45,927 bases of DNA, from contig JAFSXD010000053.1 in assembly GCA_017444245.1 (NCBI GenBank), positions 1 to 45,927 of the forward strand, in the 5' to 3' direction. This document shows positions 50 through 45,927 of the stretch, piece after piece (position 1 is the stretch's first letter; every line of letters begins with the position of its first letter). Under the pieces are notes generated by a model, which did not search any database, had not been told where the DNA came from, and saw only the letters and a list, made by a program, of their open reading frames with translations. The position numbers and the translations under genes were made by a program. Source of the DNA: Selenomonadaceae bacterium. GTDB lineage: Bacteria; Bacillota; Negativicutes; Selenomonadales; Selenomonadaceae.

Positions 50-1201
50 ATGTTTGGTTCTCGCAAAGAGACGTACTGTCCATTTTGCTTAAGAAAAATA
101 AAATTCAGTGACTTAAAATTTTTTTGCGTGGACGAAGAAGAAAACCGCCATGAAGTCCGCCCTTCGTTCACGGACAGATTTTTTAAGCGTCTGCCGACTT
201 GCACAAGGCGATTTTGCAGAAATCATGGCTTGACTGTTCGCGAAGTGACTTGCAGATATTGCGAAGAGAAATTGCCCGCGCAGATTTTGTTTCACGACAA
301 ATATTTAAGTTTTTGTGCGGTTGGCGTCGCGGGTGCGGGCAAGTCCAGCTACGTCACGACGGTAATTCATGAATTGCGCTACTCGGATTTGCCGTACATA
401 CTTCAAGCAATGGACACGGAGACAACGGAAGTTGCTTTGTTGAACGAAAAATTGGTTTATGAGGCACGAAATTGTTTGACGGGTACGACTTCCGGAGTGT
501 CGCCGCGCCCGCAATTTTGGACAATCCTTGATAATTCCAAAGACACACACAAAATTCCGACGTACTCTTTGACGCTTTACGACGGGGCGGGAGAAGATTG
601 CGAAAAAATCGGTTACACGCCGATTGATGCGAAAATCAGCCGATACATTTCGGGGGCGCGCATGCTTTTGATAATGTTCGATCCGTTAATTTTGTCAAGT
701 GTTCAAAATGAAGTTCCGCCGGAAATTTTGTATTCGTCCATAGCTCACGAACGCAAGGAGTCCGCGCCGACGAACATGGTAAGCATGGCAAATTCGCTCG
801 TCAATTACATAAAGCAAAGTTGCAATATCAGTCCCGGTCAACGAATCGAAGCGCAAGCGGCAGTTGTTTTAACGAAACTTGACGCGTTGAGGGACACGGT
901 AAACGGATTTGCGCCTGACTCGACGATTAACCGCGAAAGTCCGCATTTGAAGAGCAAAGGCTTTGTTGACGCAGACAGTAAAATGGTTGATTTGGAAATT
1001 AGGGATTGGCTGATACGTCAAGGAGAAATTGCTTTTTTGAATACGATTGACGCGAATTTTAAAAATGTGCGTGTGTTTGGCGTATCCAGTTTTGGAAACC
1101 CGCCGGATTCGCAGAAAAGATTGGCGCGGATTCGTCCGCATAGGGTTTTAGATCCGATTATGTGGATGCTTGCCAGTGAAGGAATTATTCCTGTGATTTA
1201 G
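50..1201 (+). CDS. Zinc-ribbon P-loop GTPase-like protein
   Basis: A 383-residue protein in two parts. Residues 1-75 hold cysteine/histidine pairs (CxxC at 10-13, C51, C56, H59, CxxC at 68-71) that look like a zinc ribbon. A P-loop NTPase follows: Walker A GVAGAGKS at 92-99, a G3-like DGAGED at 178-183 and a G4-like TKLD at 275-278, which points to guanine specificity. This pattern resembles the TRAFAC-clade 'double-GTPase' proteins that comparative genomics places in predicted conflict or stress modules with vWA and other partners; that assignment is inference. No membrane segment is seen. The ATG has a good AAAGGAG site at 34-40. The TAG stop overlaps the first base of the octamer array that follows. 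Upstream partners, if any, lie outside the window. The P-loop GTPase fold is likely; the biological role is unknown. Confidence 0.75.
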   Translation: MFGSRKETYCPFCLRKIKFSDLKFFCVDEEENRHEVRPSFTDRFFKRLPTCTRRFCRNHGLTVREVTCRYCEEKLPAQILFHDKYLSFCAVGVAGAGKSSYVTTVIHELRYSDLPYILQAMDTETTEVALLNEKLVYEARNCLTGTTSGVSPRPQFWTILDNSKDTHKIPTYSLTLYDGAGEDCEKIGYTPIDAKISRYISGARMLLIMFDPLILSSVQNEVPPEILYSSIAHERKESAPTNMVSMANSLVNYIKQSCNISPGQRIEAQAAVVLTKLDALRDTVNGFAPDSTINRESPHLKSKGFVDADSKMVDLEIRDWLIRQGEIAFLNTIDANFKNVRVFGVSSFGNPPDSQKRLARIRPHRVLDPIMWMLASEGIIPVI

Positions 1202-1224
1202 ATCGATAGATCGATAGATCGATA
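1201..1224. repeat. Octamer tandem repeat (GATCGATA type)
   Basis: Three GATCGATA copies start on the last base of the preceding TAG stop codon and run directly into a heptamer array. Confidence 0.95.
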
Positions 1225-1268
1225 GAAGCTTAAAGCTTGAAGCTTGAAGCTTGAAGCTAACAGCTAAC
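1225..1268. repeat. Heptamer tandem repeat (AAGCTTG type)
   Basis: About six copies of an AGCT-centred heptamer (AAGCTTG, ending in CAGCTAA) fill the space up to the secA Shine-Dalgarno site. A TTG inside this array at 1251 is in frame with secA and can be mistaken for its start. Confidence 0.93.
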
Positions 1269-6620: not shown

Positions 6621-6692
6621 AGATCGCTAGATCGATGGATCGATGGATCGATGGAGGGCTATCGATCTACTAACTATCGATCTATCGATCCA
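6621..6692. repeat. Octamer arrays flanking the TrkH/PLP-gene junction
   Basis: Two octamer arrays with a short unrelated core. The distal one overlaps the stop codon and last four codons of the upstream minus-strand gene, giving it a Ser-Ile-Asp-Arg end. Confidence 0.93.
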
Positions 6693-7906
6693 ACTACCTC
6701 CAAAAGTGCAATAAGCGCGTGTTCAAAAGTCAAACCGCCCTGCAAGTAAACGGCATAAGGCGGGCGCAAAGGTCCATCCGCGCTTAACTCAATCGACGCA
6801 CCTTGTACAAAAGTTCCCGCCGCCATGATAACTTTATCTTCGTAGCCCGGCATGTCCCACGCTTCAGGAACGGCGTACGAATCGACGGGAGAAAATTTTT
6901 GTATCGCGCGACAAAACGAAATTAATTTTTCCGCGCAGTTCAATTCGATTGCTTGAATAATATCTCCGCGTGTTTCGTCGACGGCAGGAAAAGTTTTGTA
7001 GCCGAGCCGTGAAAAAATTCCCGACGCAAAAATTGCCGCCTTCAACGCCTGCGCCGTCACGTGAGGAGCTAGAAATAATCCTTGATACAAAAGACGCGGC
7101 GTCCCCAAACTTGCGCCGAGTTCCGCGCCCATGCCCGGTGCTGTCAACCTGTACGCGGCAAGTTCGACTAAATTTTTTTTCCCGACGACGTATCCGCCCG
7201 TTGGTGCAAGTCCGCCGCCAATATTTTTTATCAAACTTCCCGCAACGATATCCGCGCCGACTTCCGTAGGCTCGCAACGTTCGACAAATTCTCCGTAGCA
7301 GTTGTCCACAAAAATTGTGCAGTTCGGATTCGCTGACTTCACCGCCGCGCAAATTTTTTCGATATCGACGTTCGTCAAAGTTTTTCGCGTGGAGTAGCCG
7401 CGTGATTTTTGAATCAACGCCAACTTGGTTTTCGCCGTCACGGAATTTTTTATTTCGTCGAAATAATTTTTTCCGTCCGTCAATTCAATTTCGCGGTAGC
7501 CGACGCCAAATTCTTTTAGTGAGCCTTTCGATTCGACGGCGTGACCAATTACCGTTTGCATTGTGTCGTACGGCGCGCCCGTCAAGGAAATCATTTCGTC
7601 GTTTGGGCGGAGGATGCCGAACAAAACCGTTGCCAACGCGTGAGTTCCCGAAACAAATTGCGTCCGCACCAACGCTGATTCTGCGCGGAAAATTTTTGCA
7701 AAAAGTTCCTCCAACTTTTCGCGCCCGATGTCGCCGTAAGCATAGCCCGTTGAAGTTTTGAAATGCGCGTCAGAAATTTTAAGTTCGCGCATGGCGTCCA
7801 AAACTTTTTTTGTGTTGAAGGTTGAAATTTCGTCGACGCGCTGAAAAATTTCTTCCACGTCGCGCAAAACTTCCGCTTTTAAGTTTAAAATTTTTTCGTC
7901 AATCAA
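6674..7906 (-). CDS. Methionine gamma-lyase family PLP protein (YnbB / aluminium-resistance type)
   Basis: A fold-type I PLP enzyme of 410 residues. Features include STGYAYGDIGREKLE near the start, FVSGTHALATVLFG (cofactor phosphate region), IFVDNCYGEFVE (Asp for the PLP nitrogen) and GSLIKNIGGGLAPTGGY, whose lysine should form the Schiff base. Members are annotated 'methionine gamma-lyase family' or 'aluminium resistance protein', and the true substrate is not settled. The start is TTG at 7906 with GGAG about ten bases upstream. The C-terminus VVGSIDR and the stop codon are written by the octamer repeat. It heads a probable transcript with the TrkH-type gene. Confidence 0.88.
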   Translation of the reverse strand: MIDEKILNLKAEVLRDVEEIFQRVDEISTFNTKKVLDAMRELKISDAHFKTSTGYAYGDIGREKLEELFAKIFRAESALVRTQFVSGTHALATVLFGILRPNDEMISLTGAPYDTMQTVIGHAVESKGSLKEFGVGYREIELTDGKNYFDEIKNSVTAKTKLALIQKSRGYSTRKTLTNVDIEKICAAVKSANPNCTIFVDNCYGEFVERCEPTEVGADIVAGSLIKNIGGGLAPTGGYVVGKKNLVELAAYRLTAPGMGAELGASLGTPRLLYQGLFLAPHVTAQALKAAIFASGIFSRLGYKTFPAVDETRGDIIQAIELNCAEKLISFCRAIQKFSPVDSYAVPEAWDMPGYEDKVIMAAGTFVQGASIELSADGPLRPPYAVYLQGGLTFEHALIALLEVVGSIDR

Positions 7907-7924: not shown

Positions 7925-7957
7925 TAGCTGGTAGCTGGTAGCTTGTAGCTTGTAGTT
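7925..7957. repeat. Heptamer tandem repeat (TAGCTGG/TAGCTTG)
   Basis: About four to five heptamer copies upstream of the PLP gene's ribosome site, ten bases from the next octamer array. Confidence 0.93.
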
Positions 7958-7966
7958 TGAAAAATT

Positions 7967-7992
7967 CTATCGATCTATCGATCTATCGATCT
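7967..7992. repeat. Octamer repeat overlapping the 3' end of the GT41 gene
   Basis: Three octamers. Read on the minus strand they encode the last residues of the GT41 protein (EIDRSIDR) and its TAG stop. Confidence 0.95.
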
Positions 7993-9805
7993 CTAAATTC
8001 AGCCGATTGAACCGCCGTTGCTCTAATTTTTCCTTGCAAAACTTCCGCCAAATTTCGCGATAAACTTTTTCCAAATTCAGCATGTAATTTTTTGCGTCCA
8101 TGAGTTTTGACTTCGCAAGTTGCCCCCGCAATCCCGCATGGTAACCCGCGACAAACGCCCGTTGAGTTCCAACTTGAATTGCCTTTCTGATATATTCCAT
8201 TGGATTTATCGCGATGAGTTCAGTCAAATCTGCGGCAGTCAAAATCGAACTGCCGAACCGTGAGCCATGAGATTTTCCGCGCAGAACAATCACGGGAACG
8301 CCCATGTACAACGCCTCGCACGTCGTCAGCCCGCCCGTGTACGGAAAAGTGTCCAACGCAATGTCAATGTCGCGGTATTGTTCCAAATAATCCGGACTGT
8401 ACGGACGAAATTCAATTCGCTCAAGTGGAAAACTCATTTTTTTTAATCGGCTCGTCAAAATTTCCACGCCGGATTCAACGCTACAAATTTTATTTTTGAT
8501 GACAAGCCGCGCGGTTGGAACTTCCTCAAGAATCGCACGCCACGCGTAAAGGACACCGTCGCTTACTTTCGCAAAATTATTGAAACTGCCGTACGTAACA
8601 AAATCATTTTTGAAAACGGGCGCAATCAAACCCGGTTCAGGAATTTTTTGAATAATTCCCGGCGCGTAACAGAGATGACAGCCGTCAACGCGCAAAATTT
8701 TTTCCGTGAAGTCCAACGGCTCGCCCTTCTCCGGCATGCAAATATTATCCGACAAAAAATAATCTATCGCGTTCAATCCCGTTGACGCCGTGTAACCAAT
8801 CGCGCAAATTTGAATCGGCGCAGGTTTACGCGCCATGACGGGCATACAATTATTTTGCGAATGCCCCGACAAGTCAACGAGAATATCAATTTGGTCTTCG
8901 TTTATGACGCGTGCAATTCTTTCCGCCGGCAATCTGCTGACATCGTGCCACGTGACTTTGAAACGTTTCAACTTATCAGTGACGAAATCGCGCCGCCCCG
9001 TTTGATAGCAAGTGACGGAAAAATTTTTTGCGTCAAAATTTTTAAGCAACGGCAAAATAAAATTTGCTACGGCGTGCTGTCTGAAGTCGGGGGAGATGTA
9101 ACCGATTTTCAAATTTTTTTCCGGCGCGTAATTAATTTTGTCGTGAGAAAATTTCGTGATGCCCGCAAAAAAAGTGTCGTACTTTTCGACGGCTTGCTTG
9201 ACTTTGTTGGACGAAACTTCGCGATAGTTGCTCAAAAATAAATGCTTGGAATAAAGTTCAGCCGCCTGCTCATTATCCTTCGTCAATGTGCTTGCTTCAC
9301 GTAAGGCATTCGACGCGGAGAGAGCGTCACCGGCGAGATAAAGTCCGTTGGATATCAGGCAAAGAGTTTTGTATAGAATTGAAGTCGTCAAAAAAATTTT
9401 TTTCTCGTCGTCTTCGGAAAGTTTTCTGTCGTCCGCGAAAAGAATTTTAAATCTGCCGCCGTTGGGAATTGAATTTAACGTGTCCAAAATTTTGTGAGCG
9501 TCATCGATAACGCCGCGCAGAATTTTCAGTTCGTCGACGAGTTCAAATTTTTCTGCCGCGACTCCGCCAAGTACGAAACGGGCGCGCAAATTATTTTTGT
9601 CAAGCGTCAAAGCGTCACGCGCCAAAATTTCCGCTTCGTCCAACTTCCCCAAGTAGAGAGCCGATTCAGCCATAATTGCAGGACCTTCAGCCGAGTTTTT
9701 ATCCAAATCAAAAATTTCACGGGCAGCACCACGCATTGAATGGGGATCGCCATTTGCCGCAAATTTTTCAGCGAGTACCAGCCAACTCAATTTCTCGTCC
9801 GCCAA
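7967..9805 (-). CDS. TPR-containing O-GlcNAc-transferase-like glycosyltransferase (GT41)
   Basis: About 612 residues. The N-terminal 230 residues are helical and TPR-like (ESALYLGKLDEAEILARDAL and similar). The C-terminal part is the two-lobed GT41 catalytic region: IGYISPDFRQHAVANF, where the histidine is the conserved one of the family, DILVDLSGHSQNN, FVTYGSFNNFAKVSDG, and the donor-site stretch DTFPYTGGLTTCEALYMGVP. Proteins of this family move a sugar from a nucleotide donor to Ser/Thr of proteins; in bacteria they often modify flagellin or adhesins. No acceptor gene is nearby, so the target is unknown. I prefer the TTG at 9805 (GAGG eight bases upstream) to the TTG at 9826, whose purine run abuts the codon. 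The gene faces its own promoter at 9850-9878. Confidence 0.85.
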   Translation of the reverse strand: MADEKLSWLVLAEKFAANGDPHSMRGAAREIFDLDKNSAEGPAIMAESALYLGKLDEAEILARDALTLDKNNLRARFVLGGVAAEKFELVDELKILRGVIDDAHKILDTLNSIPNGGRFKILFADDRKLSEDDEKKIFLTTSILYKTLCLISNGLYLAGDALSASNALREASTLTKDNEQAAELYSKHLFLSNYREVSSNKVKQAVEKYDTFFAGITKFSHDKINYAPEKNLKIGYISPDFRQHAVANFILPLLKNFDAKNFSVTCYQTGRRDFVTDKLKRFKVTWHDVSRLPAERIARVINEDQIDILVDLSGHSQNNCMPVMARKPAPIQICAIGYTASTGLNAIDYFLSDNICMPEKGEPLDFTEKILRVDGCHLCYAPGIIQKIPEPGLIAPVFKNDFVTYGSFNNFAKVSDGVLYAWRAILEEVPTARLVIKNKICSVESGVEILTSRLKKMSFPLERIEFRPYSPDYLEQYRDIDIALDTFPYTGGLTTCEALYMGVPVIVLRGKSHGSRFGSSILTAADLTELIAINPMEYIRKAIQVGTQRAFVAGYHAGLRGQLAKSKLMDAKNYMLNLEKVYREIWRKFCKEKLEQRRFNRLNLEIDRSIDR

Positions 9806-9849
9806 TCCCGTCACCTCGTCCGTCAATCCTTCATAACAAAACTTACCTA

Positions 9850-20460: not shown

Positions 20461-20541
20461 GGATCGATGGATCGTTGGATCAATGGATCGATGGTAAAAT
20501 TTTTCTATCGATCCACCGATCTATCGATCTATCGATCTAAC
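20461..20541. repeat. Two octamer arrays between the EAL gene and the hybrid kinase
   Basis: One array (20461-20495) contains variants such as GTTGGATC. The second (20506-20541) overlaps the last codons and the stop of the EAL gene. Confidence 0.93.
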
Positions 20542-23481
20542 CTCCGCATTGCGTTTCTCAAAAAATTCTACGAAATCTTTCATTGGCAACGGCTTTGAAT
20601 TTAAAAAGCCCTGCCCATAGTAACAACCAAGCTCCAACAACAATTCTTCTTCTTCGCGCGTCTCAATTCCCTCACACAAAACTTTCATCTTCAGCGCATT
20701 GCCCAGCTGAATGACATTTGCCAAAATGTTCCGCATGCGTTCAGATTTATCCGCGCCCGTCAAAAGCGACCTGTCAATTTTCATAACGTCCATAGGCAAC
20801 GAACCCAACATCATGAACGAAGAGTAACCCGAACCGAAATCGTCAACCGAAATAAGAAATCCCATTTTGTGCAACTCGTCAATCACGTAGGCGGCGTTGT
20901 CATGTCCTGCTTTCGCGTCGAAGTCCCCAAACATCGTTTCGGTCACTTCTAATTCAATCAAACCTGCAGGAATTTCGTAAGCGTCCATTATCATTTTAAT
21001 TTTTTCCAGATAACCTTCCTCCGTCATATGCAAGCGCGATTGATTTACGGAAATTGGAACGACTTCTTTTCCTTCGTCCAAACGCTGACGTTGCAGACGA
21101 CAAGTTTGCTCCAAAAGAAAGTAATCAACTTGAATGACAAAACCGTTGCGTTCAAAAAGCGGGATGAAATCGCCCGGCGGCATAAATCCCATTTCAGGAT
21201 TAATCCAGCGAACAAGGGCTTCCGCGCCGACAATTTCGCGCGTCCTTATGTCGTACTTCGGCTGATACCACGCTTGAAATTCTCCGTCGATAAGTGCCTG
21301 CTCCATGCGTCCTTCGATATTGTGATCCATCGTCAAGGTAGCTTGCAATTTTTCGTCGAAAACTTTTACTTCGTCGCTTATATTTTGATGACAGGCAATC
21401 AGCGCACGATCAACCGCCTGTTGTACGTCGGTAAATTTATCGTAAGGCGTGATACCTGCGCGGGTATGCAAAACAATTTTTGCGCTGTCAACGGCAGTGT
21501 CCATGTAACTGTTTTTTTCAATAATACTTTTTGCCCAGTCAACCAAATTGTCCAGCGATTCGGCTTTGCAAAAACAAATTATGTGGTCCGTGTCAATGCC
21601 CGCCGCAGTCAACACGACGGGATTTTCCTCCGCAAGATTCGCCGCCAATTTTCTGAACTGCTTGTCAACCAATCTGTGCCCTTGCGTCTTCGTTGCCGCC
21701 GCACTGGAAACTAAGGAGAAAACCACGAAAAACATTTTCATGCCCGATTCAAGATTTTCCATGACTGTCGGCACTTCACGTTCCAGCCAACGAACATTCG
21801 GCAAATCGTATCGTAAATCAGTGTACGCCATGTGTTCGACAAGCTCAAAGTGACGATGTCGCATTCTGGCACGATAGACGAAAAATCCGCCAATCGCCGA
21901 CAATATCGCGAGGGCAACAAAAAAAGTTTTTACCGGATGATGATGAGTTATTGACGAAATAGAAAATTCCGCCTCCGATTGTTGATTCGTGTTAATCACG
22001 TCACGAATCCAATCCGGATCGATGTGCCCAATTTCCTTGTTCAAAATTTGCCAAAGGTGCGGGTCTTCGTCAGCGCATATTCCCAAACTGCGCGGCTCTG
22101 AAAAAAGTGACGCGGGTTTAATTTCCAATGAATAAGTTCCCGTTGAATCGATAATTGTATTTGCCGCACTGCGCTGAACCAACGCCATATCTGCGCGCCC
22201 TTCATTGACGGCTTGCACTGCCTCTTCATAGGAGGAAACATAAACGCGTTGAGACTCCGGAAAATGTGATTCGACAAAGTGCGTCGTGTGATAAAGTTTT
22301 CTTACGCACGCAACTTTTAACGGTTTCTCCAAATTTATGACGTAATCGCGACGAGTTACGGGGACGTATTCAACCGTCATGTACGGCGAAACGGGCACGG
22401 CGTTAAATTCTCCGGTCCAGCTGAAATCGCAGACGGCATCAGCGGCAAAATCAATTTCACCTTTGCTGATTCTGTCTTTAATGTCTTGAAAATTTTTTCC
22501 TTCGACAATTTCAATTTCAATGTTCAAGTCTTCGGACATTTTTCTTATGAGTTCGGGAACGACGCCGACGAGTTCTCCTTTATCGTTGCGATAGGCAAAG
22601 GGGCGGTGCTCCAAAAAAATTGCCGCTTTGAGTTTCTTTTTCTGCTCCAGATATTTTTTTTCGCTACCGCTAAGCGTCAAAGGAAATCCGTTTTTGCGAA
22701 GATATCGCAAGTTCAATGTGTCGCGAATATTTGGTTGGTACAACAAAAGCTGTTCCATTGCGAAATTAATTCTGTCGTAAAGTTCCTTGCGATTTTCGAG
22801 AATCAGCAAACGGTAACTTTGTCTGTCGAAAACCGCCCAAACATTTGTCGCAAAACGCGGATCAATCAACGCATCAATGTAGCCGTCAATTTCGCCGTGA
22901 TCAAAAGCTTTTTTTATGTCGTTAATTTTTTGAAAAGGAATCATCGTGTAAGTGAATCCTTCAACTCTGGCAATGTTCACCAAAGTTGGCGTCGAATGAA
23001 AAAATGGCGCGTATCCGATTTTCATTTGCGGCTTTATTTCTTTCGTGACTAATTCCATTGGATAACGCCCAACGACATGATCTGTTCGCTTGGCGTTGGC
23101 AACTTTTTTGTAATCGCCCGGCATATCGGGGATTATGTCAACTTCGCCGGCTTGAAAATTTTTTACGAGCTCGTCCCAAGTTTCAAATTCAACATATTCA
23201 AATTTACAGTTGGCGTAATTTGAAAGATACTCCATGTATTCGTAGCCGTAACCTGATTTGTGGTTCGGAATATCTTCGTAGACAAATGAAGTGCCTTTCA
23301 AGTATCCAACTTTAACTTTATCGTGGTGAGTGTTCAAAATCGGTTCGCTGAAATAAGATTCTGCCTGCGCCACCGCCGTAGTCATGCTTACATATTCGTC
23401 GTTGGGTTCTGCATTGCAAATTGCTGAAATCGATTCAAAAATCGTTGTCATGAGTAGAAAAATTTTTAAAAGTTTCACCAT
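20521..23481 (-). CDS. EAL phosphodiesterase with two periplasmic solute-binding domains and a degenerate GGDEF
   Basis: About 986 residues. A signal peptide (KLLKIFLLMTTIFESISA) is followed by two solute-binding-protein (family 3) domains at about 35-255 and 270-500, the second starting LKAAIFLEHRPFAYRNDKGE. A membrane helix lies near 525-545 (FFVALAILSAIGGFFVY). A GGDEF-like domain follows whose signature is replaced by TAAGIDTD, so it should not make c-di-GMP. The EAL domain looks active: GAEALVRW, SVNQSRLH, ELEVTETM, SVDDFGSGYSS, MKIDRSLL and CEGIETREE are all there. It probably hydrolyses c-di-GMP in response to a periplasmic ligand, likely an amino-acid-like compound (inferred). The start ATG at 23481 has GAGG eight bases before it. 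The C-terminal EVRSIDR and stop come from the octamer array. Confidence 0.92.
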   Translation of the reverse strand: MVKLLKIFLLMTTIFESISAICNAEPNDEYVSMTTAVAQAESYFSEPILNTHHDKVKVGYLKGTSFVYEDIPNHKSGYGYEYMEYLSNYANCKFEYVEFETWDELVKNFQAGEVDIIPDMPGDYKKVANAKRTDHVVGRYPMELVTKEIKPQMKIGYAPFFHSTPTLVNIARVEGFTYTMIPFQKINDIKKAFDHGEIDGYIDALIDPRFATNVWAVFDRQSYRLLILENRKELYDRINFAMEQLLLYQPNIRDTLNLRYLRKNGFPLTLSGSEKKYLEQKKKLKAAIFLEHRPFAYRNDKGELVGVVPELIRKMSEDLNIEIEIVEGKNFQDIKDRISKGEIDFAADAVCDFSWTGEFNAVPVSPYMTVEYVPVTRRDYVINLEKPLKVACVRKLYHTTHFVESHFPESQRVYVSSYEEAVQAVNEGRADMALVQRSAANTIIDSTGTYSLEIKPASLFSEPRSLGICADEDPHLWQILNKEIGHIDPDWIRDVINTNQQSEAEFSISSITHHHPVKTFFVALAILSAIGGFFVYRARMRHRHFELVEHMAYTDLRYDLPNVRWLEREVPTVMENLESGMKMFFVVFSLVSSAAATKTQGHRLVDKQFRKLAANLAEENPVVLTAAGIDTDHIICFCKAESLDNLVDWAKSIIEKNSYMDTAVDSAKIVLHTRAGITPYDKFTDVQQAVDRALIACHQNISDEVKVFDEKLQATLTMDHNIEGRMEQALIDGEFQAWYQPKYDIRTREIVGAEALVRWINPEMGFMPPGDFIPLFERNGFVIQVDYFLLEQTCRLQRQRLDEGKEVVPISVNQSRLHMTEEGYLEKIKMIMDAYEIPAGLIELEVTETMFGDFDAKAGHDNAAYVIDELHKMGFLISVDDFGSGYSSFMMLGSLPMDVMKIDRSLLTGADKSERMRNILANVIQLGNALKMKVLCEGIETREEEELLLELGCYYGQGFLNSKPLPMKDFVEFFEKRNAEVRSIDR

Positions 23482-23532
23482 AAAACGCACCTCGTACTAA
23501 ATTCGTTGCCTGAAAAAAATTTTTTGCGTCTA

Positions 23533-44286: not shown

Positions 44287-44320
44287 TTAGCTTGTAGCTT
44301 GTAGCTTGTAGCTTGTAGAA
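44287..44320. repeat. Heptamer tandem repeat between ktrB and ktrA
   Basis: Four perfect TAGCTTG units, the cleanest heptamer array in the window. Confidence 0.95.
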
Positions 44321-44343: not shown

Positions 44344-45705
44344 TCAACCAATCATGATATTTTCTGCCGGATATTTTATCAGCGTGGCATTTTGTTTAAT
44401 CAATGCCAACATGAAAGTCATTATTCCAACCCTGCCGACCAACATCGTCAACGACAAAACTAATTTCCCAACAATATCCCATTCGCCGGTAATTCCAATT
44501 CCCATGCCAACCGTGCCGAATCCCGACACAGTTTCAAAAATTATTTCCGTCAGAACATGTGCGCCGTTGTCAATCGCCGACAAAATTATTCCCGCCGTCG
44601 CCACCCAAATTGTTCCCATAGTGAATATGGCGAAGGCTTGATCTCGTAATTGTTGAGTGATTCTCCTGTTGAAAACTATTATTTCATTTCTGCCGCGAAA
44701 GACCGCCCACATCGACATTAAGATTATGAAAAAAGTCGTGCTCTTTATGCCGCCGCCCGTCGATAACGGTGACGCACCGATAAACATTAAAATTATCATT
44801 ATCAGCTGGGAATTTTGATGCGCCGACGCCAAATCGAAAGTATTCATTCCCGCCGTCCTGCACGACACCGAAGTAAATATAGTGTTGGCTAATTTATCTT
44901 CCAAACGCATGTTGCCAATCGTCGCGGGATTGTCGCACTCCGTCGCGAACAAAAGCAACGCCCCTGCAAAAATCATGACGACGTTGATTATCAAAACAAT
45001 TTTTGTGTGCAAGGAAAATTTTTTCCAACTGCGCTTGTGTGTGAAATCGTAAATCACGGTAAAACCAATGCCGCCCAAAAATATCAGCAGACCAAAGCAC
45101 GTCATCAAAAAATAATCGTCGTTGCGCTTGCAGAGGCTGTCGTAGTTTCCGAATAAATCAAATCCGGCATTACAAAATGCTGACACTGAATGAAAAATTC
45201 CATAACCCACTGCGCTGAATCCAAATTCGGAATAAAAATGTATTGCCAACAGCAACGCGAAAAATCCTTCAATCGCGAACGTGTAAATTATGATTCGTTT
45301 CAGCAAATCAAAAATTCCAGCTTGCCCGCCTTGATTCAGCGACTCCTGCAGGACTAAACTTTCTTTCATCTGAAATTTGTAGCCCATTGTGTGAAAGACG
45401 AGCGTTGCCAACGTCATTATTCCCAGCCCGCCGATTTGGATTAGGAAAAGCATGACAATCGTTCCGAAAATTGTTAAATCGTTGTGTAAGTCGACGACCG
45501 TCAAGCCGCACACGCAAGACGCTGAAGTTGAAGTGAAAAGCGCGTCGATTGGGTGGAGTCCTTGCCCGTCCGTCGTGCTAATCGGCAACATCAAAAGCAC
45601 CGTCCCGATTAAAATCATCGCAACGAAACTTAAAATAATTATTTGCGTGCTTCGGAATTTAAAAATTTCCTGAAGGATAACGTTGTTTAAAGTTAAGCGT
45701 TTCAA
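44344..45705 (-). CDS. ktrB: Potassium-uptake membrane subunit KtrB
   Basis: The ion channel subunit of the Ktr system, 453 residues with many membrane helices. The four filter segments are SASCVCGLTV (about 61-70), AFCNAGFDLFG, CRTAGMNTFD and GFGTVGMGIG. The open frame runs upstream to 45873 through both repeat families, giving a spurious N-terminus with MDRWIDSLFQ-like and ATSYQLQA-like sequence. The true start is most likely TTG at 45705: AGAGGA lies eight bases upstream and the product then starts MKRLTLNNVILQEIF. Confidence 0.93.
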   Translation of the reverse strand: MKRLTLNNVILQEIFKFRSTQIIILSFVAMILIGTVLLMLPISTTDGQGLHPIDALFTSTSASCVCGLTVVDLHNDLTIFGTIVMLFLIQIGGLGIMTLATLVFHTMGYKFQMKESLVLQESLNQGGQAGIFDLLKRIIIYTFAIEGFFALLLAIHFYSEFGFSAVGYGIFHSVSAFCNAGFDLFGNYDSLCKRNDDYFLMTCFGLLIFLGGIGFTVIYDFTHKRSWKKFSLHTKIVLIINVVMIFAGALLLFATECDNPATIGNMRLEDKLANTIFTSVSCRTAGMNTFDLASAHQNSQLIMIILMFIGASPLSTGGGIKSTTFFIILMSMWAVFRGRNEIIVFNRRITQQLRDQAFAIFTMGTIWVATAGIILSAIDNGAHVLTEIIFETVSGFGTVGMGIGITGEWDIVGKLVLSLTMLVGRVGIMTFMLALIKQNATLIKYPAENIMIG

Positions 45706-45723
45706 AAATTTGTTCCTCTTGTG

Positions 45724-45927
45724 AGCTTGTAGCTGGTAGCTGGTAGCTTGTAGCTTGTAGAAAATTTCCAGACTGAAATAAACTATCGATCCATCGATCC
45801 ATCGATCTAAATTGTAGCTTGTAGCTGGTAGAAAATTTCCAAGCTGAAATAAACTATCGATCCATCGATCCATCGATCTAAATTGTAGCTGGTAGCTGGT
45901 AGAAAATTTCCAAGCTGAAATAAACTA
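45724..45927. repeat. Composite tandem array of heptamer plus octamer repeats
   Basis: Each unit holds a heptamer tract (TAGCTTG/TAGCTGG), then GAAAATTTCC, a short linker, then three octamers ending ATCTAAATTG. One complete unit, 45815-45885, is 71 bases. A longer relative precedes it and a third is cut by the window edge, so the array continues beyond 45927. Confidence 0.93.

Follow-up and report, generated by a model that had tools for sequence, protein, structure and literature searches.

The window, which is the whole 45,927-bp stretch of DNA analysed here, is contig C26 in full, one of 110 contigs in a MAG of 1.64 Mb (G000). At its right end a tandem array lies upstream of trkH, which encodes a potassium uptake protein (Table 1). 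Relatives of this TrkH protein at 71–83% identity all come from Selenomonadaceae/Selenomonadales MAGs, mostly from ruminant gut and two of them named Quinella, and on this evidence we treat the host genome as that of Quinella or of a close relative. The array has a period of 71 bp at 45743–45927 (2.6 copies, 96% matches, TRF score 342), is the highest-scoring tandem repeat of the window and extends as far as the contig end at 45927. As the window is the entire contig, it is an assembly break that truncates the array. The trkH ORF as called runs wrongly into the array, to position 45873. The left end of the contig (positions 1–29) is also an octamer array, and assembly thus broke at arrays on both sides.

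Table 1 Array and gene features of the window at trkH and at the spacers used for comparison
Feature	Position	Strand	Basis
Octamer array at stop codon, then heptamer array before secA; ordinary two-sided spacer	1199..1268	+	Array detector
Second two-sided spacer: octamer at stop codon, heptamer before next Shine-Dalgarno site	7925..7992	-	Array detector
Single heptamer array before trkA; ordinary comparison case	44288..44318	-	TRF, array search
trkH, potassium uptake protein, downstream of the array	44344..45705	-	Pfam TrkH, E 2e-54; start set separately from ORF list
Heptamer array, CTACAAG/CTACCAG on trkH sense strand, adjoining trkH Shine-Dalgarno region	45718..45760	-	Sequence, TRF
71-bp composite unit, copy 1 (heptamers, AAAATTTCC block, CAGACTG linker variant, three octamers)	45743..45813	-	Sequence, TRF, genome search
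Octamer array of first 71-bp unit, ATCGATGG/ATCGATAG on trkH sense strand	45785..45807	-	Sequence, octamer search
71-bp composite unit, copy 2	45814..45884	-	Sequence, TRF, genome search
Octamer array of second 71-bp unit	45856..45878	-	Sequence, octamer search
71-bp composite unit, copy 3, cut at base 43 by contig end; variant also at right end of C85	45885..45927	-	Sequence, linker search, overlap

Each full 71-bp unit consists, in order, of heptamers ending in GTAG, the AAAATTTCC block, a linker, three octamers with an ATCGAT core, and CTAAATT; a heptamer tract that starts near 45718–45724 precedes the first unit. A preliminary description of this DNA had reported heptamers, a constant GAAAATTTCC block, a linker and three octamers in at least two copies with a third cut short, and had proposed that the two families can be duplicated jointly as a block. 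Both statements agree with the TRF result, in which the two families lie inside one unit repeated head to tail, as in a higher-order tandem repeat. Among the copies the heptamers vary (CTTG/CTTG, CTTG/CTGG, and CTGG/CTGG) and the linker occurs as CCAGACTG or CCAAGCTG; since the copies differ at a few bases, the array is not a single k-mer loop written out repeatedly.

A genome search for the constant block places GAAAATTTCC at 68 sites. It is enriched beside arrays (6 observed vs 0.8 expected), but was rejected as a marker specific to the composite because A/T words are ubiquitous, with AAAAATTTT and its like ranking among the most frequent 9-mers. Within a 439-kb sample of the same genome (the window plus 394 kb of other stretches, 27% of the genome), AAAAATTTT/AAAATTTTT occurs 918 times, and A(n)T(n) words in general are extremely common.

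Searching the genome with the 71-bp unit returned the three copies of the window and one near-full match at the very end of contig C85. The 26-nt linker, with up to two mismatches, occurs at only four places genome-wide, three in C26 and one at the right end of C85. Reverse-complemented, C26 opens with 39 bp identical to those that end C85; this overlap has the copy-3 variant and matches the third copy only. Given this 39-bp overlap, C26 and C85 probably flank a single 275-nt spacer that runs from a MATE-family gene, whose product matches Pfam MatE and HATPase_c_2, to the called start of trkH. Closed in this way, the spacer would contain octamers from the stop codon onwards, a linker, heptamers, three octamers, a linker, heptamers, three octamers, the linker variant, heptamers, and the Shine-Dalgarno site. 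There would thus be three linker-heptamer copies in the MATE-trkH spacer if the two contigs adjoin. In a synteny comparison for this join, the upstream neighbor of trkH is another gene in the relatives, so that gene order lends the join no confirmation.

Both families are widespread in the genome. Exact searches of the 1.64 Mb returned 123 heptamer 18-mers and 41 octamer 23-mers, and in the 439-kb sample a simple detector identified 125 arrays, 73 of heptamers (3–10 units each) and 52 of octamers, all but 5 of them outside genes as called, starts included, by a small simple script. Strict tandem runs in intergenic DNA have periods of 7, 8, 14, 16 and 21 only. Most units carry a stop codon, and as neither 7 nor 8 is a multiple of 3, the stops fall in every frame. 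Another direct duplication, of 97 bp, comprises an octamer spacer with neighboring sequence and adjoins a gene start (L058, 11900–12026). The same heptamer tract, (CAAGCTA)n, is present without mismatch in fifteen viral contigs of IMG/VR (L162–L176), in some of them next to GC-rich stretches that resemble hairpins; no exact match to the octamer was found in that collection.

In the sample, arrays fill the spacers between stop codons and Shine-Dalgarno sites, and their orientation is strongly biased. The strand bearing TAG (TAGCTTG in the heptamer, TAGATCGA in the octamer) tends to have its start at a gene border and to point away from the gene; exceptions exist, so that this is a bias and not a law. 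The 5′ side of the TAG strand is nearer the gene border in 38 heptamer arrays vs 16 with the opposite orientation, and in 34 vs 9 octamer arrays. Where an octamer array meets a gene end, its usual starting point is the stop codon itself or a position 8, 16 or 24 nt within the frame; for heptamer arrays the starting point lies 2, 9, 16 or 23 nt within it. TAG is the stop codon of 22 of 27 genes bordered by octamers and 16 of 19 bordered by heptamers, vs 23% of other genes. The C-termini of three ORFs in the window (6674–7906, 7967–9826, and 20521–23490) are written by octamer arrays, and all end in SIDR. Polarity at stop codons is partly a matter of definition, because the TAG strand ends the frame; this does not apply at gene starts. 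There TAG lies on the non-coding strand, and most arrays end 13–23 nt before the start codon, immediately 5′ of the Shine-Dalgarno site. Summed over G000 and its relatives, the 5′ side lies at Shine-Dalgarno distance in 50 arrays and the 3′ side in 22.

The same rule accounts for the arrangement of neighboring arrays. All 12 cases in the sample in which an octamer and a heptamer array are neighbors fit it (O+H+ six times, H-O- five times, H-O-O- once), and no other octamer-heptamer arrangement was found in the 439 kb. The fixed order of octamer then heptamer arises because each array alone obeys the rule that the TAG strand reads away from the gene. Two octamer-octamer pairs in the sample also converge. 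Of the facing pairs, 19 are convergent and none divergent; in the relatives the corresponding counts are 13 and 0.

Among the comparison genomes, all MAGs and one per species, other Quinella species use a range of different units, including TAAGAAT, TAGGAAT, TAGGAGT, TAGGAAC, and TAATGCG, mostly of period 7 with a few of 8. Where relatives with other units have trains of TAG at a spacing of 7 or 8, polarity is again biased (76 vs 29, p = 5e-6), in genomes that were sampled unevenly and in part around known arrays; oriented by TAG or TAA, the counts are 15 vs 10, with TAA often present on both strands. The nearest relative sampled at length (G011; TrkH 82% identical) has 21 heptamer arrays in 227 kb, and the octamer was not found in those 227 kb. 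It is common to G000 and G097, whose shared proteins have a median identity of about 70–74%. Inheritance between sister species alone was rejected as an account of the octamer, which is present in G097 but was not found in the 227 kb sampled from the closer G011 (75–80%).

Orthologous spacers hold different families, either octamers vs heptamers or two kinds of heptamer, between flanking proteins that are 80–95% identical. At two sites G000 and G097 both have octamers in the corresponding spacer, one of which precedes a gene called HSP70-like on the basis of its N-terminal residues. Orthologs of trkH are preceded by other repeats, by a hairpin-like stretch (recognized by eye, L075) or by no array. 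G097 also contains higher-order arrays in which units of 8 and 7 bp are interleaved, with 15-bp (8+7) and 23-bp (8+7+8) periods (L180, 328–446; L182, 3043–3106; L187, 2814–2886; and L190, 4379–4474), and the 23-bp unit independently combines two unit lengths in a single tandem repeat. Different heptamer families, for example TAGGGGC and TAGGGAA, face each other within single spacers of this genome (L187, 1528–1645; L183, 15250–15315; and L199, 955–1051).

These observations are probably best explained by local tandem multiplication of one intergenic spacer, that between the MATE-family gene and trkH, within a two-sided layout that holds throughout the genome and in which arrays turn over singly. 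The composite is a normal two-sided spacer, and the finding is that one such spacer was then multiplied in tandem. The TAG strand of each array tends to have its 5′ end at a gene border and to run inward, so that paired arrays converge on an A/T-rich middle; read in the orientation of trkH, the order is a TAG stop supplied by the octamers, octamers, an A/T-rich linker, heptamers, the Shine-Dalgarno site, and trkH. We infer that the 71-bp unit was born by slippage or unequal recombination within this spacer and that slippage and unequal exchange alter copy number. Arrays may be replaced one by one, with copying between arrays keeping each family alike within a genome, while selection would preserve the flanking stop codons and Shine-Dalgarno sites. 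The arrays would then be fast-evolving spacer DNA that supplies stop codons, and not a sequence-specific switch for trkH.

Slippage alone leaves the presence of one unit sequence at many loci unexplained. A broader proposal is that in Quinella species the gaps between genes are filled directionally, with units of 7 or 8 bp, most of them bearing a stop codon, being added from each border inward; the unit sequence would be replaced between species while period, polarity and position stay fixed, and the 71-bp tandem would be a spacer caught in the act of multiplying. We regard this general form as unlikely.

A function in gene expression is also unlikely. The arrays might form a weak RNA stem-loop or bind a repeat-recognizing protein, and so tune trkH, or might insulate both genes through stops in three frames. 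Their position directly before Shine-Dalgarno sites and the stop codons of most units, which fall in every frame, are consistent with such a role, and the 142-nt sense strand folds slightly better than shuffled sequences (z = -2.2). This fold score is modest, however, and is expected from the self-complementary ATCGAT. Unrelated genes are preceded by arrays, orthologous genes have other repeats or none, and upstream of starts the TAG stops are on the antisense strand. A possible regulatory role for trkH is therefore not needed to account for the array.

The preliminary description had also offered the composite as a model for the spread of arrays, with partial loss of the unit leaving a single family at most other loci. 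According to such an account the unit is a mobile or copyable module, in which octamer, linker and heptamer travel as a block and single-family loci are its remnants. The roughly one dozen other octamer-linker-heptamer neighbors in the genome do keep a fixed order, and several have a GA(3–6)T(3–6)C block in common. Yet each has its own linker, often GA(n)T(n)C but differing between loci, and that of the 71-bp unit is confined to C26 and C85 at up to two mismatches. As the genome has no further copy of this linker, the unit has not spread in modular form, and the whole unit is not seen at several unrelated loci as it would be for a mobile composite repeat of MITE or BIME type. Moreover, 90 of the 107 array clusters in the sample are a single array, heptamers occur without octamers in the 227 kb sampled from G011, and both octamer-octamer facing pairs and pairs with other partner families exist. 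Neither part of the proposal is borne out, and we give modular spread little credence.

Arrays could instead arise by directional addition at 3′ DNA ends, in a telomere-like manner with templated steps of 7 or 8 nt, followed by joining at A/T microhomology to yield two convergent arrays. The TAG strand points away from gene starts and gene stops alike, array borders are sharp on its 5′ side and fuzzy on its 3′ side, and AAATTT is found at 31% of inner array ends, vs 17% for other intergenic DNA and 10% for outer ends, all as such a process would leave them. The same polarity could nevertheless result if stop codons, start codons or words resembling Shine-Dalgarno sites were selected against, and there is no candidate enzyme: a telomerase-like activity was rejected, as the sole reverse transcriptase found in the genome is of the group II intron type. 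Directional addition is accordingly a very improbable source of the arrays. The reverse transcriptase/maturase in question, which also has an HNH domain, is the only RVT_1 match in the genome and lies about 0.2 kb from an octamer array (L161, 658–2574, on contig C17). Equally improbable is an assembly artefact, in which a repeat graph collapsed or unrolled at the contig end produced the tandem units: the array does lie at a contig end in a 110-contig MAG, and the opposite end of C26 is an array too, but the copies differ at several bases and a second contig, C85, ends in the 71-bp unit with the copy-3 variant.

The arrays resemble several known repeat systems. In Xanthomonas and Nostoc, GGGAATC and GGGGA(C/T)T arrays, respectively, have period 7 and many dispersed, mostly intergenic copies near ORF borders, where they lie on the coding strand at stops, overlapping the stop codon, and on the non-coding strand before starts; they form G-quadruplexes, and each genome in that study has one family (PMC4692102). 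The heptamers described here likewise form 7-bp tandems of few copies at many intergenic loci, with matching strand geometry at ORF borders (PMC4692102). Unlike those arrays, they have another sequence, share the genome with a second family of period 8, enclose an A/T-rich middle, and turn over between congeners.

The TAACTGA direct repeats of marine Beggiatoaceae, Cyanobacteria and Bacteroidetes also have period 7, contain stop codons, and occur near starts at many loci in a patchy set of taxa; their stop-bearing strand reads towards the start codon and replaces the Shine-Dalgarno site (PMC4679880). The period, the stop-bearing unit, the occurrence at many loci, the patchy distribution among taxa and the proximity to starts are alike here. 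In contrast, the units are others, the stop-bearing strand mostly reads away from the start, and the array stops short of a Shine-Dalgarno site that is kept, mostly 13–23 nt from the start codon. Borg elements carry recently formed, fast-evolving tandem repeats and resemble the present arrays in this respect, but are extrachromosomal elements of archaea, and their published abstract does not describe shared families of 7 or 8 bp (PMC9879509). When the Quinella genome paper (PMC9585023) was searched by term, no account of repeats of this kind was found. Dispersed heptamer arrays are thus already known; the two-sided layout with its convergent pairs, the coexistence of periods 7 and 8 in a single genome, and the replacement of families between congeners appear, by comparison with these reports, to be new detail.

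Distantly related bacteria are known to contain dispersed heptamer arrays, and this genus bears on how such arrays arise and spread. It offers dozens of species with different units at corresponding spacers, a genome with two families, arrays that face each other, and a higher-order duplication of recent date. A comparison of orthologous spacers could directly follow the gain, loss and replacement of arrays. Seeding of single arrays by composites is a testable idea and looks wrong.
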